Shown piece by piece: positions 19,514 to 24,521 of a stretch of 64,000 nt of DNA (its first letter is position 1; every line of letters starts with the position of its first letter). A program made the translations under genes and the position numbers. The notes under the pieces are model-generated. The model ran no database searches and was not told where the DNA came from. It saw only the letters and a program-made list of their open reading frames with translations. Source of the stretch: Pseudoalteromonas denitrificans DSM 6059 (GTDB lineage Bacteria; Pseudomonadota; Gammaproteobacteria; Enterobacterales; Alteromonadaceae). Location of the stretch: the NCBI RefSeq assembly GCF_900112265.1, contig NZ_FOLO01000023.1, positions 1-64,000 on the forward strand, given 5' to 3'.

Positions 19514-19680
19514 ATAAATATTCCGTGAGTACTGAGCTTGTCACTACTATAAATAGTGATATGTGAAATAAAGGTGAAAAAGCACAGAACGGCAGAATTA
19601 ATTAAAAAATATTGAAATAACACAAAGGAAATAAATAGTTACATTTTAATAAAGTACATATCTTTATTTTATACAAAAAA

Positions 19681-19702
19681 GGTACTAACTTAATTTAGTA
19701 CC
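19681..19702. promoter_or_regulatory. palindrome between the ABC operon and the RiPP precursor
   Basis: GGTACTAA (19681-19688) and TTAGTACC (19695-19702) form a perfect 8-bp inverted repeat with a 6-nt loop, 54 bp before the precursor ATG. An A6 run lies on the left flank and TATTTT on the right, so it could fold as a bidirectional terminator. Its place in a divergent promoter region also fits an operator for the nearby response regulator. Confidence 0.4.
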
Positions 19703-19755
19703 TATTTTAAGGTATATAAATTAATTAAAACAAAAATCAAAATTAGGATATAAAA

Positions 19756-19923
19756 ATGAAACTTAAATTAAATAAAAAAAAGCTTAAAAATCTATCTAAA
19801 GATCAAAAATCACTACCTGCAGATATGACGCCACAAGTAGCAGGCGGGGGGCCAATTACAGACGAGCCAATATGTGGTATGAGTGGTGGTGGTTGGTGGT
19901 GTACAAGAACGATTTGTTTATAA
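19756..19923 (+). CDS. RiPP precursor peptide, class I lanthipeptide-type leader
   Basis: A 55-residue peptide. Its Lys/Leu/Asn-rich start (MKLKLNKKKLKNLSKDQKS) and the MTPQVAGGG segment near residue 24 match the leader family annotated in marine gammaproteobacteria and Bacteroidota as class I lanthipeptide or GG-type precursor. The C-terminal core after the Gly run has three Cys (CGM, WWCT, TICL), several Ser/Thr and a GGGWW patch. AGGA lies upstream of the ATG. No dehydratase, cyclase or radical-SAM gene was found in the window, so modification enzymes would have to act in trans. The divergent ABC exporter and two-component system are possible partners. Confidence 0.75.
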   Translation: MKLKLNKKKLKNLSKDQKSLPADMTPQVAGGGPITDEPICGMSGGGWWCTRTICL

Positions 19924-19941: not shown

Positions 19942-19971
19942 AAGATCTCCTTGCATCACTAAAGAGATCTT
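19942..19971 (+). terminator. hairpin after the RiPP precursor gene
   Basis: AAGATCTC (19942-19949) pairs with GAGATCTT (19964-19971) 18 bp after the stop codon of the precursor, followed by a short T/A-rich stretch. Such a site would leave the precursor as a short monocistronic mRNA. Confidence 0.5.
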
Positions 19972-20327: not shown

Positions 20328-21872
20328 ATGAAAACAGACTCACAGCGCTATAACTTTATGATTTTTCACTTTTTAGCAATAGCATGTATTTTTACTAGTA
20401 TACTGACTGGATTGCGAATAAGGCTTGTATGGGATCCCAGTTTTATTTGGTTATCACCACTATTACCCCAAGGAGAGATGCACTGGGTTCATATATATTC
20501 AGGTGTGGTTTTCACAGCCCTTGGGTTAAATTTTTTATGTAATAAAAATAAGAATACCAATGGATCTCACAGCCTATACCATCTTTGGGTTAAAAGGTTT
20601 GGTTATATGGCTATTATTTCTGCACTGACAACAGGTTGGCTTAAATACTTTCAAACACCTATCACTTACCTACCCCACGCTCATTTTATTGCTTGTCTAG
20701 CGATTGTGGTTTTTATTTTTTTACACTCTTATATCTACATATTGCAGTTAGGGATCAAGCTTTATCCCATAATTATGCCCTTACACATTTTAAAAAAAGT
20801 AAAAGTAACCCGTTACCTTATGGTTTTTATTTCATTTTGCTTAGTATTTTTTATGTTTGAAAAAACACTCAATACGCGCACCTTAGTAGTAAATAAAATT
20901 AATTTCCAACAATTTATTGATATTGATGGCGAAGAAAATGAAAGTTTTTGGCATCAGATAAAACCTGTAAAAATATTTACAACTGGTGGTGCCAATTTTA
21001 TTAATGGCAGCACTGAAGTGTCAGTAAAAGCAGTTGCAAACCCAGAAGAAGTTTATTTTTTATTTCAATGGCAAGACCCAAGCCAAAGCCTAACCCATAT
21101 GCCTTTACTTAAAAAAAATGGAAAGTGGTCAATACAACAAAATGGATTTTATCAATTTGATGAGCAAGTTCATTATGAAGATAAATTTGCCGTACTAGTT
21201 TCTAATAGTTGCCAATATGGCGGTGATGGTACAGCTAAACTTGGACCCAAACCATTAACTGATAAACCCCGTAATTTCCATAACAAAGGTTATCACGCAA
21301 GTACGGATAACAAAATTCGCGATCTTTGGCATTGGAAAGCGGTTCGCACCAATAATATGTTTTTAGCCGATGACAACCACATTGGCATCGCCAAAAAAGT
21401 ACGTACGGCCCAACGACGTTATAGCGCAGGTTATACGCCAGATGGTAAGGAAAGTGGTGCGTATGTCATGAACTGGGACTGGTATCAAAAGCAAAACATC
21501 ACTCCCAAACGTCTACCAATAGCATCAAGTTTATTAAACTTGAATCCCAAAACGGATAAAGCTTGGATCTTGCCTTGGTTTGAAAGCAAACCCTACGATA
21601 AGTCAAAAGATACATTTAAAGATGGCACTTTATTACCTTCTGTATTGTATCGTTCTAATCGATTTGAAGGTGATAGGGCTGATATCAGAGCCCGTGGAAA
21701 ATGGCACAAAGGTGTTTGGACTTTAGAGCTTGCTCGAAAACGTAATACTGGCTCTAAACATGATATCAAACTCAAAAATGATGTGTGTTTATGGACCTCT
21801 GCATTTGATCACGCTCAAATTGCCCATACCCGGCATGAAAGGCCACTTAAACTGAAATTTGCTTCCCTATGA
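20328..21872 (+). CDS. cytochrome b561-like membrane domain fused to ethylbenzene-dehydrogenase-type heme-binding domain
   Basis: 514 residues. The first about 185 form a membrane cytochrome b with helices and histidines suited to heme ligation (HFLAIACIF, MHWVHIYSG, HAHFIACLA, FLHSYIY). Residues from about 200 to 510 form a periplasmic EB_dh-type domain (family of the heme-binding gamma subunit of DMSO-reductase-type enzymes), with VYFLFQWQDP near its start and GVWTLELARK near its end. This suggests electron transfer between quinones and a periplasmic partner. No molybdenum enzyme is encoded nearby. It overlaps the next gene by 4 bp (ATGA), so they form an operon. Confidence 0.75.
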   Translation: MKTDSQRYNFMIFHFLAIACIFTSILTGLRIRLVWDPSFIWLSPLLPQGEMHWVHIYSGVVFTALGLNFLCNKNKNTNGSHSLYHLWVKRFGYMAIISALTTGWLKYFQTPITYLPHAHFIACLAIVVFIFLHSYIYILQLGIKLYPIIMPLHILKKVKVTRYLMVFISFCLVFFMFEKTLNTRTLVVNKINFQQFIDIDGEENESFWHQIKPVKIFTTGGANFINGSTEVSVKAVANPEEVYFLFQWQDPSQSLTHMPLLKKNGKWSIQQNGFYQFDEQVHYEDKFAVLVSNSCQYGGDGTAKLGPKPLTDKPRNFHNKGYHASTDNKIRDLWHWKAVRTNNMFLADDNHIGIAKKVRTAQRRYSAGYTPDGKESGAYVMNWDWYQKQNITPKRLPIASSLLNLNPKTDKAWILPWFESKPYDKSKDTFKDGTLLPSVLYRSNRFEGDRADIRARGKWHKGVWTLELARKRNTGSKHDIKLKNDVCLWTSAFDHAQIAHTRHERPLKLKFASL

Positions 21873-22504
21873 AAATACGTATTTTAATAAGCTTCATTAT
21901 TTTTCTTTTTATAACTGCAGTTTTGTTTGCATCAAAACTAACACCTAAAAAAAATGAGGTTACCAATAATCGTTTTATAAAAGTAGACAGATATGGAATA
22001 ACACTTACTTCCTGGCAAGGACCTTGGGCATGTATTTTTGATCAAAAACAGCAACTTTTATGGGAAGTAAAAACTGATAATGAATCCATTCATGACGGTT
22101 ATTGGACCTACTCTTGGTTTAATGGTGTGACAGGAATTGAGAATTCTGGTGATTGTTATTTTGAAAAAGAGCGCTGCGATACACTAGATTTGATCACTAA
22201 AACCAATCAAGAAAAGCTGTGTGGTTTCACCGGATGGCGATTGCCTACTGAAGCCGAATTGAGAAATTTAATCGTCGAAAATGACCGCCCTGGTGAAAAT
22301 AAAATTGCCAATGATTATTTTATTCAAATCAAAAAAGGTGATTACTGGAGTGGGACATACTCTAAACCTTTAAAACGATTTAATGGCCATATCACACAAG
22401 GCGCAGCAGCAATTGATTTCAGTAAACAACAACAAAAGGTTTTACCTTATCAAAACGCTGCATTTGTTATTTTAGTAAATAGTCATGTACCAAAATCACT
22501 CTAA
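21869..22504 (+). CDS. DUF1566 (Lcl C-terminal-like) exported protein
   Basis: 211 residues with an N-terminal membrane/signal helix (about 3-21). One DUF1566 domain includes WACIFDQKQQLLWEVK, GYWTYSWFN, a CGFTGWRLPTEAELRNLI signature near residue 140 and DYWSGTYS. This C-type-lectin-like fold is common in exported proteins of unknown role. Four cysteines could form disulfides. It is translationally coupled to the heme-protein gene, so the two probably act together in the periplasm. Confidence 0.75.
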   Translation: MKIRILISFIIFLFITAVLFASKLTPKKNEVTNNRFIKVDRYGITLTSWQGPWACIFDQKQQLLWEVKTDNESIHDGYWTYSWFNGVTGIENSGDCYFEKERCDTLDLITKTNQEKLCGFTGWRLPTEAELRNLIVENDRPGENKIANDYFIQIKKGDYWSGTYSKPLKRFNGHITQGAAAIDFSKQQQKVLPYQNAAFVILVNSHVPKSL

Positions 22505-22550
22505 CCTTTGCGCTTTGCGTGATATACACAAAAATATAATAGGAACTTTT

Positions 22551-24521
22551 ATGAAAATGATTTATAAGGGCATACTTGGCTTAGCGATGGCATCCGCTTC
22601 AACTTGGGTTATTGCAGACTCTAAACAACACAGATTAATTTGGGATGCATCACCAAGCTCTCAGGCAACCATAGGTTTTACACCAACAGGAAGTAATAAC
22701 CACCATATAAAGTATGGATTTACAACCGATGAACAAGGTTGGAGTACAAAAAATATCACTGCGGAGCATACATTTTCAGGTTCATTAACAAGTCAATTTA
22801 TTAAACTTAATAACTTACCTGCTAATAGCCCTGTATATTATAGGATATGTGATGATGCAGGGTGTGGGACACGTTTATGGTTTAAAACTGCGCCAACAGA
22901 TAATAGTTCATTTATTGCAATAGCCGGTGGAGATACACGAACAGGATGGACAACAAGACGTGAAGGCAATAAATTAGTGGCTAAAATTCGTCCATTATTT
23001 ATTATGCATGGAGGCGATTATACCAATGCCAACAGTGCCTCAGAAATGAGTCGTTATTTAGACGACTGGCAACTGACTTTTTCGGACGATCTTATAAACT
23101 CAATCAACTATAAAAGAATTTATCCTTTTATAGCAACACATGGTAATCATGAAGACGGCAACTATAAAACATTATGTGAAGTCTTTGGCATTGATTATGA
23201 TAACAATAATACCTGTAATGCCCATGATAGTTATGGTGCATTTGATATATCTCCACTCCTAAGAGTTTATACACTTAATAGTCAATTTAAAAATAGTGGC
23301 TGGTCTAGTTATGCTACGGCTATGAATAACTGGTTAAAACAAGATCTTATAAATCAAGGTAATTCGGTTAAATGGCGTTTTGCTCAATATCACAAACCTA
23401 TGTACCCCCATTATTCTGGCAAGTCAGACAATACCGAATTATTTTCATGGTGGGCGCAAAATTTCTACGATTACGGTATGAATTTAGTGGTAGAGTCAGA
23501 TACGCATATCAATAAAATGACACAAGCACTCAAACCTTCTGGCAGTAATTATAATACAACAACCACAGGCGGCACGGTTTTTGTGGGTGAAGGAAGCTGG
23601 GGTGCACCTGCGCGTTCAGCCAACAACCCTAAGTCTTGGACGATAGATTTAGCGAGTATTCAACAATTTAAAGTGATTGAAGTTTCAAATGACACTATAA
23701 ACGTAAAAACGGCACAATTTAATGCAAGTGCAGACGCTTTAACCTATGAACAGCGTAAAAATAACCCTGTGATCTTACCTAATAATATTAATTGGTGGGT
23801 AGCAAGCACAATAGGAGAAACACTTTCATTAAAACAGTCATCAACGGGTAAAAGCATTATCGATTTTGGTGATGGTCCAATCGACCCTCCTGGAAACAAT
23901 GTGCTAGAAAACGCTGTACCACTCAAAAACTTAAAGGCAAATAAAGATCAAGAACTCGTTTTCACACTGCAAGTACCACAAGGTGTTAGTAGCTTAACAT
24001 TTGAAATAAATGGAGGATCGGGTGATGCTGATTTATATGTAAAACATGCTCAAAAACCCAGCTCAAATAGCTATGACTGTCGCCCATTCAAAGATGGTAA
24101 CTCTGAGTCATGTAATATCAATACGATACAAGTTGGCACCTATTATATTGTACTCAAAGCCTATAAAACATTTGAAGGTCTCACTTTAACAGGTACTTTC
24201 ACCCTAAATGGTGGTGATACTTCTGGAGGAGATACAATTAATAATATTTCAGTTAACAAAGATGATTGGTATTTTACAAGTTTTGATTTACCCGTCGGTG
24301 TGAGTAAACTTGATGTCGGTATTTCAGGGGGGACTGGAGATGCTGATTTATATTTACAAAAAACATATAAGCCAACATCGAACAGCTATGTATGTCGGCC
24401 TTTTAAAGAAGGTAACATAGAAAGCTGCACTGTTACTCATCCAACAGCGACAACTTGGCATATTGGCATTAAAGCCTATGAAAATTTTAGTGGTCTTAAC
24501 TTAACCTACCAATATGAATAA
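22551..24521 (+). CDS. secreted purple-acid-phosphatase-like metallophosphoesterase with two PPC domains
   Basis: About 656 residues with a signal peptide (MKMIYKGILGLAMASASTWV) whose cleavage is near ADSK. An Fn3-like N-domain (about 20-115) is followed by a metallophosphatase core with GGDTR, HGGDY, THGNHE and QYHKP motifs. The usual GHxH is replaced by SDTH (in VVESDTHINKM). Two PPC domains follow, each with DADLY and SYxCRPFK(D/E)G. The ATG at 22551 has AGGA upstream; the frame is open to 22485 but that start would overlap the previous gene and lack a site. A phosphoesterase role outside the cell is inferred from the family. Confidence 0.82.
   Translation: MKMIYKGILGLAMASASTWVIADSKQHRLIWDASPSSQATIGFTPTGSNNHHIKYGFTTDEQGWSTKNITAEHTFSGSLTSQFIKLNNLPANSPVYYRICDDAGCGTRLWFKTAPTDNSSFIAIAGGDTRTGWTTRREGNKLVAKIRPLFIMHGGDYTNANSASEMSRYLDDWQLTFSDDLINSINYKRIYPFIATHGNHEDGNYKTLCEVFGIDYDNNNTCNAHDSYGAFDISPLLRVYTLNSQFKNSGWSSYATAMNNWLKQDLINQGNSVKWRFAQYHKPMYPHYSGKSDNTELFSWWAQNFYDYGMNLVVESDTHINKMTQALKPSGSNYNTTTTGGTVFVGEGSWGAPARSANNPKSWTIDLASIQQFKVIEVSNDTINVKTAQFNASADALTYEQRKNNPVILPNNINWWVASTIGETLSLKQSSTGKSIIDFGDGPIDPPGNNVLENAVPLKNLKANKDQELVFTLQVPQGVSSLTFEINGGSGDADLYVKHAQKPSSNSYDCRPFKDGNSESCNINTIQVGTYYIVLKAYKTFEGLTLTGTFTLNGGDTSGGDTINNISVNKDDWYFTSFDLPVGVSKLDVGISGGTGDADLYLQKTYKPTSNSYVCRPFKEGNIESCTVTHPTATTWHIGIKAYENFSGLNLTYQYE

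Follow-up and report, generated by a model that had tools for sequence, protein, structure and literature searches.

The precursor gene and its neighbours

The window analysed here is the whole stretch of 64,000 nucleotides corresponding to C47:1-64000 in a genome of 6.09 Mb and 130 contigs (G000). On its forward strand, a precursor gene of the class I lanthipeptide type occupies 19756..19923, with an ATG start and 55 codons followed by a stop. It is one of 44 paralogues that share a leader. The leader, MKLKLNKKKLKNLSKDQKSLPADMTPQVAGG (19756..19848, forward strand), comprises 31 residues and ends in MTPQVAGG; it is supported by two alignments, one of 41 of the 44 precursors (A1) and one of 19 leaders (A2). 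The core peptide that follows, GPITDEPICGMSGGGWWCTRTICL (19849..19920, forward strand), contains three cysteines, Cys40, Cys49, and Cys54. Each of them is preceded at a distance of 2-6 residues by Ser or Thr, and the predicted pairs are Thr35-Cys40, Ser43-Cys49, and Thr50 or Thr52-Cys54. The peptide thus has the layout of a LanA precursor, namely an N-terminal leader and then a core with Cys and Ser/Thr. Inverted AGGTAC...GTACCT half-sites lie 5' of the gene (19680..19703, without strand), and an imperfect terminator-like hairpin, read by eye as AAGATCTC ... GAGATCTT, lies 3' of the stop codon (19942..19971, forward strand).

Neither Pfam nor NCBIfam models matched the peptide, and no Rfam element was found at the locus at the gathering threshold. 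Searches of the 107 other genus genomes returned no full-length relative of the core; 12 of them gave matches with E <= 1e-9, and these depend on the leader and extend no further than residue 51. Spread by phage or plasmid was considered and rejected, as no relatives were found in viral contigs (queried with the window peptide) or among PLSDB plasmids (queried with the consensus leader). The open reading frame is real far beyond chance, because copies of its leader are present at 44 sites distributed over 28 contigs. The original prediction of a 55-residue RiPP precursor with a three-Cys core is therefore borne out, and its description as an orphan was wrong.

Facing the precursor is a unit composed of an ATPase, an FtsX-type permease, a response regulator, a kinase, and a 1629-aa lipoprotein-like reading frame. 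These parts are as originally described, with the FtsX match of the permease just under the Pfam cut-off; the permease also resembles YbbP, far below the cut-off of the YbbP model. It had been suggested that the peptide and this unit form a local system for export and sensing, an idea drawn from their divergent placement. In the related genome G017, which contains an orthologue of the window permease with 66% identity, a syntenic block of kinase, regulator, permease, and ATPase (61-79% identity) likewise faces an EB_dh gene, but the precursor is absent and the gap measures 327 bp instead of the 814 bp in the window. Among 30 permease loci fetched, the leader occurs within a 1.5-kb flank at the window's own locus and at none of the other 29. 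Permease orthologues with 42-47% identity are also present in four genomes outside the 52 that contain the leader (G016, G065, G005, and G050). More broadly, permease matches at E <= 1e-20 occur in 108 of 108 genus genomes, mostly as a distant paralogue of about 21% identity, whereas the leader is found in 52. A conserved association of the precursor with a sensing ABC/two-component module was thus not seen, and the unit looks unrelated to the precursor. The proposed link was to be given up if homologous precursors sat beside unrelated genes and the unit occurred independently; both were found, and a joint export and sensing system is extremely improbable. A dedicated exporter, composed of a C39-peptidase ABC transporter and HlyD, is encoded in the LanB/LanC operon described below.

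Beyond the precursor, positions 20328-24521 of the window encode an EB_dh-domain protein, an Lcl_C protein, and a PPC-tailed metallophosphatase, and their order beside the ABC/two-component unit is kept in G017. The giant lipoprotein had no match in the 19-kb stretch of G017.

Paralogous precursors and their cores

Searching the genome for further copies of the leader, as had been proposed with the original prediction, gave 44 precursors on 28 contigs (45 rows, the last of which, with E = 1.63, falls outside the leader). When the fetched loci were scanned with an HMM, 44 distinct proteins were recovered; a decayed copy scoring 16.5 bits was also detected and excluded. The reading frame is intact in 42 of the 44 precursors, with ATG in 39, GTG in two, and TTG in one as start codons. 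The remaining two are frame-shifted within the leader (L038 at about 3945 and L030 at about 782); as both shifts sit in A-rich runs, they are possibly sequencing errors. Precursors occur in close pairs or small groups, such as C47:64640 and C47:64849, C75:21924 and C75:22297, and C87:18557 and C87:18772. The first of these pairs lies only 640-971 bases past the end of the window.

The paralogues share the leader MKLKLNKKKLKNLSKD..LPADMTPQVAGG. Across the 43 paralogues whose leader is complete (the copy in L030 was omitted), pS was 0.667 and pN 0.214, a ratio of 0.32, and the leader is under purifying selection across these genes. Its synonymous sites are near saturation, so that most precursors are not recent copies. 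Nisin-type class I leaders carry an FNLD box, which is absent from the consensus of this leader. NCBI has other class I leader models besides the FNLD type, and one of them, NF038158 (class I lanthipeptide leader L1b), matched 12 of the 41 members scanned weakly at E <= 1 (best E 0.027), the window peptide itself being unmatched.

The neighbourhoods of the homologous precursors, whose comparison had also been proposed, consist of varied genes. No neighbour family recurs in three or more of the fetched loci of this genome, save general classes such as kinases and ABC transporters and loci that overlap. No same-strand gene of at least 100 aa lies within 60 bp of any of the 41 precursors that are flanked on both sides by such a gene in the fetched stretch, as judged from mechanical reading frames.

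At least two classes of upstream sequence can be distinguished: one contains AGGTAC, and the other contains CTGTCTTAAAAT and then a TTACTATATTA-like sequence. Of the 44 precursors, 16 have AGGTAC upstream on one strand or the other, vs 1.2 expected in Markov-shuffled upstream regions; this motif ranked first among 6-mers in an open scan and was picked after the results had been inspected. A 16-nt pattern, AGGTACANNNTGTTAC, was derived visually from sequences upstream of the precursors themselves; its three exact matches in the genome are all upstream of precursors, as are two of the seven matches with one mismatch. With two mismatches the total of 109 is close to the 104 of a reversed-pattern control. 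A single operator for all precursors was rejected, because the pattern is non-specific in this looser form.

Cys, Ser, and Thr are abundant in the cores, which range from 12 to 48 aa in length and are mostly unrelated to one another, as only four of 903 core pairs outscore the best shuffled pair. Together the 44 cores contain 127 Cys (11.4%), and one core has none; Cys and Ser/Thr are both present in 42 of 43 cores. To evaluate the arrangement of these residues, Cys positions were fixed and all other residues were shuffled 1000 times, which controls for Cys near the C-terminus. Ser or Thr was found 2-6 residues upstream of 116 of the 127 Cys, compared with 85.7 +/- 4.3 in the shuffled cores (z 7.0), and none of the 1000 shuffles reached 116. 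Five other residue classes upstream of Cys gave z values of -1.5 to 0.8, and Ser/Thr downstream of Cys gave 77 vs 67.2 expected (z 2.2). The cores of relatives, some of which are homologous to each other (36 were found, and one without a core was dropped), behave alike: Ser/Thr lies upstream of 75 of 86 Cys vs 51.9 +/- 3.9 expected (z 5.9) and downstream of 48 vs 43.0 (z 1.3). When both sets were pooled, Ser/Thr peaked at -5 (z 4.6), -3 (z 4.2), and +2 (z 3.6; 55 vs 35) relative to Cys, and the excess at +2 indicates that the pattern is not purely one-directional. Such a pattern would be expected from selection for thioether rings in which Ser/Thr mostly precedes Cys.

Individual cores also appear to matter, since 15 pairs of like cores from three close species have a pN/pS of 0.28; three of these pairs, with 53% identity, are paralogues. 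Among related cores, LTTSRAYCYNTGLCSDTLYC (L023) and VTTSRSWCWTTGLCTDTKLC (L171, L173, and L178) resemble each other across species in the placement of Ser, Thr, and Cys. A shared locus for these cores was rejected, as their flanks show no similarity in about 3 kb. Like cores between dissimilar flanks hint that precursor genes move between sites.

One alternative is that only the precursor or precursors adjoining the LanB/LanC operon are real substrates, and that the dispersed genes, including that of the window, are decaying duplicates. The two frame-shifted leaders and a further decayed copy beside lanC are what it would predict, and in G368, a genome from another genus, lanC is closely preceded, within 600 bp, by two copies of the leader. 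Decay does not sit well with the 42 frames left intact from a standard start codon, the constraint on the leader (pN/pS 0.32), the Ser/Thr-Cys pattern found throughout the cores, or the conservation of cores between close species, and we consider it very improbable. The decayed copy itself is located at about 13275-13493 of L122, between lanC and the intact precursor.

Genes for probable modification and export

Whole-genome Pfam searches, the second genome-wide check that had been proposed, gave a single match each for the LanB C-terminal domain and for LanC, both on contig C27 and outside the window, which agrees with the earlier statement that the 64 kb contain neither. The two genes adjoin each other and belong to the sole LanC-LanB-HlyD-PCAT operon of the genome (C27:67089-75077). 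By Pfam matches, it consists of a C39-peptidase ABC transporter (PCAT, C27:67089-69218), HlyD (C27:69289-70533), LanB (C27:70610-73891), and LanC of 406 aa (C27:73857-75077). An intact sibling of the window gene adjoins the operon divergently at C27:75763-75939. A LanB dehydratase and a LanC cyclase, as expected of a LanA system, are thus encoded in the genome. Location of the precursor beside these enzymes, which is usual and not essential, applies to this sibling and not to the window gene, which lies on C47. Modification enzymes acting in trans, as originally suggested, are therefore probable.

LanB is a glutamyl-tRNA-dependent dehydratase. By sequence, the closest solved relative of the LanB found here is 9g04, a thiopeptide-type protein, followed by NisB and 5ehk; its only NCBIfam match, above the cut-off, is TIGR03891, a C-terminal domain model that is named thiopeptide-type. 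LanC is closest in sequence to 8byk and NisC among solved structures, and its alignment displays the WCYG and CHG motifs, which we take to be the zinc ligands. The PCAT matches ABC transporters of bacteriocins, including 4ry2 and 6v9z. Among nine named leader loci, L077 and L080 have LanC, LanB, and HlyD adjoining, and beside the leader in L075 are genes for a C39-peptidase ABC transporter and for HlyD. No such genes were seen among those scanned within about 6 kb of the other six.

Past the PCAT end of the operon, a CRISPR-like array occupies 3780-4888 of L122 (about 65.8-66.9 kb of C27). It has a 28-nt repeat, a period of 60 nt, and 17 copies of the repeat-spacer-repeat unit, and may resemble arrays of type I-F. 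Elsewhere, a second peptidase-type ABC transporter with an HlyD-like gene is located on C91 (L123 5948-12945). Next to it are two small peptides that have double-glycine motifs and leaders of a different kind. One of the 44 precursors is about 1.2 kb away, and the locus is possibly a separate RiPP or bacteriocin system.

The distribution of the leader closely follows that of LanB. At E <= 0.01 the leader was detected in 52 of 196 relatives, all of them in the genus of the window, which is probably Pseudoalteromonas, judging from named leader matches in Pseudoalteromonas, Thalassomonas, and Colwellia. LanB is present in 51 of 108 genus genomes, every one of which also has the leader; 56 have neither, and the sole leader-positive genome without LanB (G072) has one marginal leader match (E = 0.0024). 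The association gives a Fisher P of 2.5e-30, uncorrected for phylogeny and shared ancestry. Among the 52 leader-positive genomes, LanC exceeds the cut-off in 50 and is absent from G072 and from G032, which has LanB. Ten or more leader copies occur in 36 of the 52, and at least 41 copies occur in nine genomes. Three species have 63, 62, and 50 precursors, each in a genome with one LanB; LanB is matched twice at full length in G089 and in G038. Across 394 genomes drawn from the order, five contain the leader (E <= 1e-4), two of which belong to the genus, own genome included. LanB was found in the same five and in G485, where the match is a 339-aa frame. In each of the three positives from other genera, the leader occurs once or twice. 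Together with the lanthionine-like Ser/Thr-Cys pattern of the cores, this co-occurrence upholds the original assignment of the gene to the class I lanthipeptide type.

The peptides might instead be exported by the PCAT unmodified or with disulfide bonds, in the manner of bacteriocins or defensins, while LanB and LanC act on other substrates. Both the Cys-rich cores and the double-glycine leader, which fits a PCAT alone, are compatible with such a route. Disulfide bonding, however, would not predict an excess of Ser/Thr upstream of Cys in both core sets with only a weak one downstream, and the almost perfect co-occurrence of LanB and leader is a further argument against this possibility, which we regard as very improbable.

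We consider it very likely, from sequence comparison, that the window gene belongs, with about 43 other precursor genes, to a class I lanthipeptide system whose enzymes act in trans. In such a system, the common leader would be recognised by one LanB and one LanC, and these enzymes would form (methyl)lanthionine rings from the Ser/Thr and Cys residues of highly dissimilar cores. The PCAT exporter and its HlyD partner would then cut after the double glycine and secrete the cyclic core. We infer that the LanB and LanC of C27 would modify the window precursor and the other dispersed precursors; ring topology and export are likewise predicted. The cores are putative secreted signals or antimicrobials. 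As a single enzyme set is accompanied by dozens of precursors, it could yield dozens of cyclic peptides. For the genus as a whole, it seems likely that about half of the species use one LanB/LanC/PCAT set in trans on up to about 60 precursors per genome, with many cores conserved between close species and an upstream regulatory element shared by part of the precursors.

Relation to known lanthipeptide systems

Lanthipeptide synthesis from many substrates is known above all from the class II LanM enzymes of picocyanobacteria, and the functions of the products are described as still unknown (PMC10783134). In the prochlorosins (ProcA/ProcM) of Prochlorococcus and Synechococcus, one promiscuous synthetase serves many precursors, 29 in the first case, and many of them are encoded far from the enzyme (PMC12328550, PMC7268733, as far as these texts are accessible). 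The system described here resembles the prochlorosins in its many dispersed precursors, single enzyme set, and hypervariable cores, with 44 precursors to one LanB, a ratio that reflects gene content alone. It differs from them in using separate LanB and LanC enzymes (class I) instead of LanM (class II), in its 31-aa lysine-rich leader instead of one of the Nif11 type, and in its occurrence in gammaproteobacteria instead of cyanobacteria. A LanM was not found in the LANC_like search, in which the 406-aa LanC is the sole match of the genome, and Pfam scans of 41 members matched no Nif11 family. The best reading of the gene content is that this system is a class I counterpart of the prochlorosin strategy, which would work alike without being a member of that group.

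Class I lanthipeptides have been reported from Pseudoalteromonas, namely pseudorosins A-C (PsfB) of P. flavipulchra (PMC12819058) and PciA of P. citrea (PMC9993889). According to the available text, PciA was modified in E. coli with no tRNA supplied (PMC9993889). These systems very probably share with ours the genus and, going by the accessible parts of both reports, the same kind of LanB/LanC enzymes; few products are described in those parts, and a set of precursors dispersed over the genome is not mentioned there (PMC12819058, PMC9993889). Our literature search, which covered few subscription papers, found no report of a dispersed library of class I precursors. Thus, class I lanthipeptides of Pseudoalteromonas were already known, and what appears to be new is a trans-acting class I system with many precursors, the chemistry of which is predicted.

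If confirmed, this would be, in the literature searched, the first case of class I enzymes as promiscuous as that of the prochlorosins, and it would point to a potentially very tolerant LanB/LanC pair. The occurrence of such a class I library in half of a marine genus (51 of 108 species genomes) would provide an independent case in which to ask what purpose such libraries serve. Genome mining restricted to the surroundings of LanC genes, as in PMC7268733, where, in the part available, precursors were sought only near the LanC gene, would miss most dispersed precursors.

Several class I precursors per genome are also known from other marine gammaproteobacteria. Viridisin and thalassomonasin of Thalassomonas are class I lanthipeptides with three and two precursors, respectively, which, in the accessible text, lie within one gene cluster (PMC11433236), unlike the dispersed precursors found here. 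The leader of the present family is also found in Thalassomonas sp. RHCl1, where it occurs at least eight times on four contigs, which indicates that dispersal is not confined to the genus of the window.
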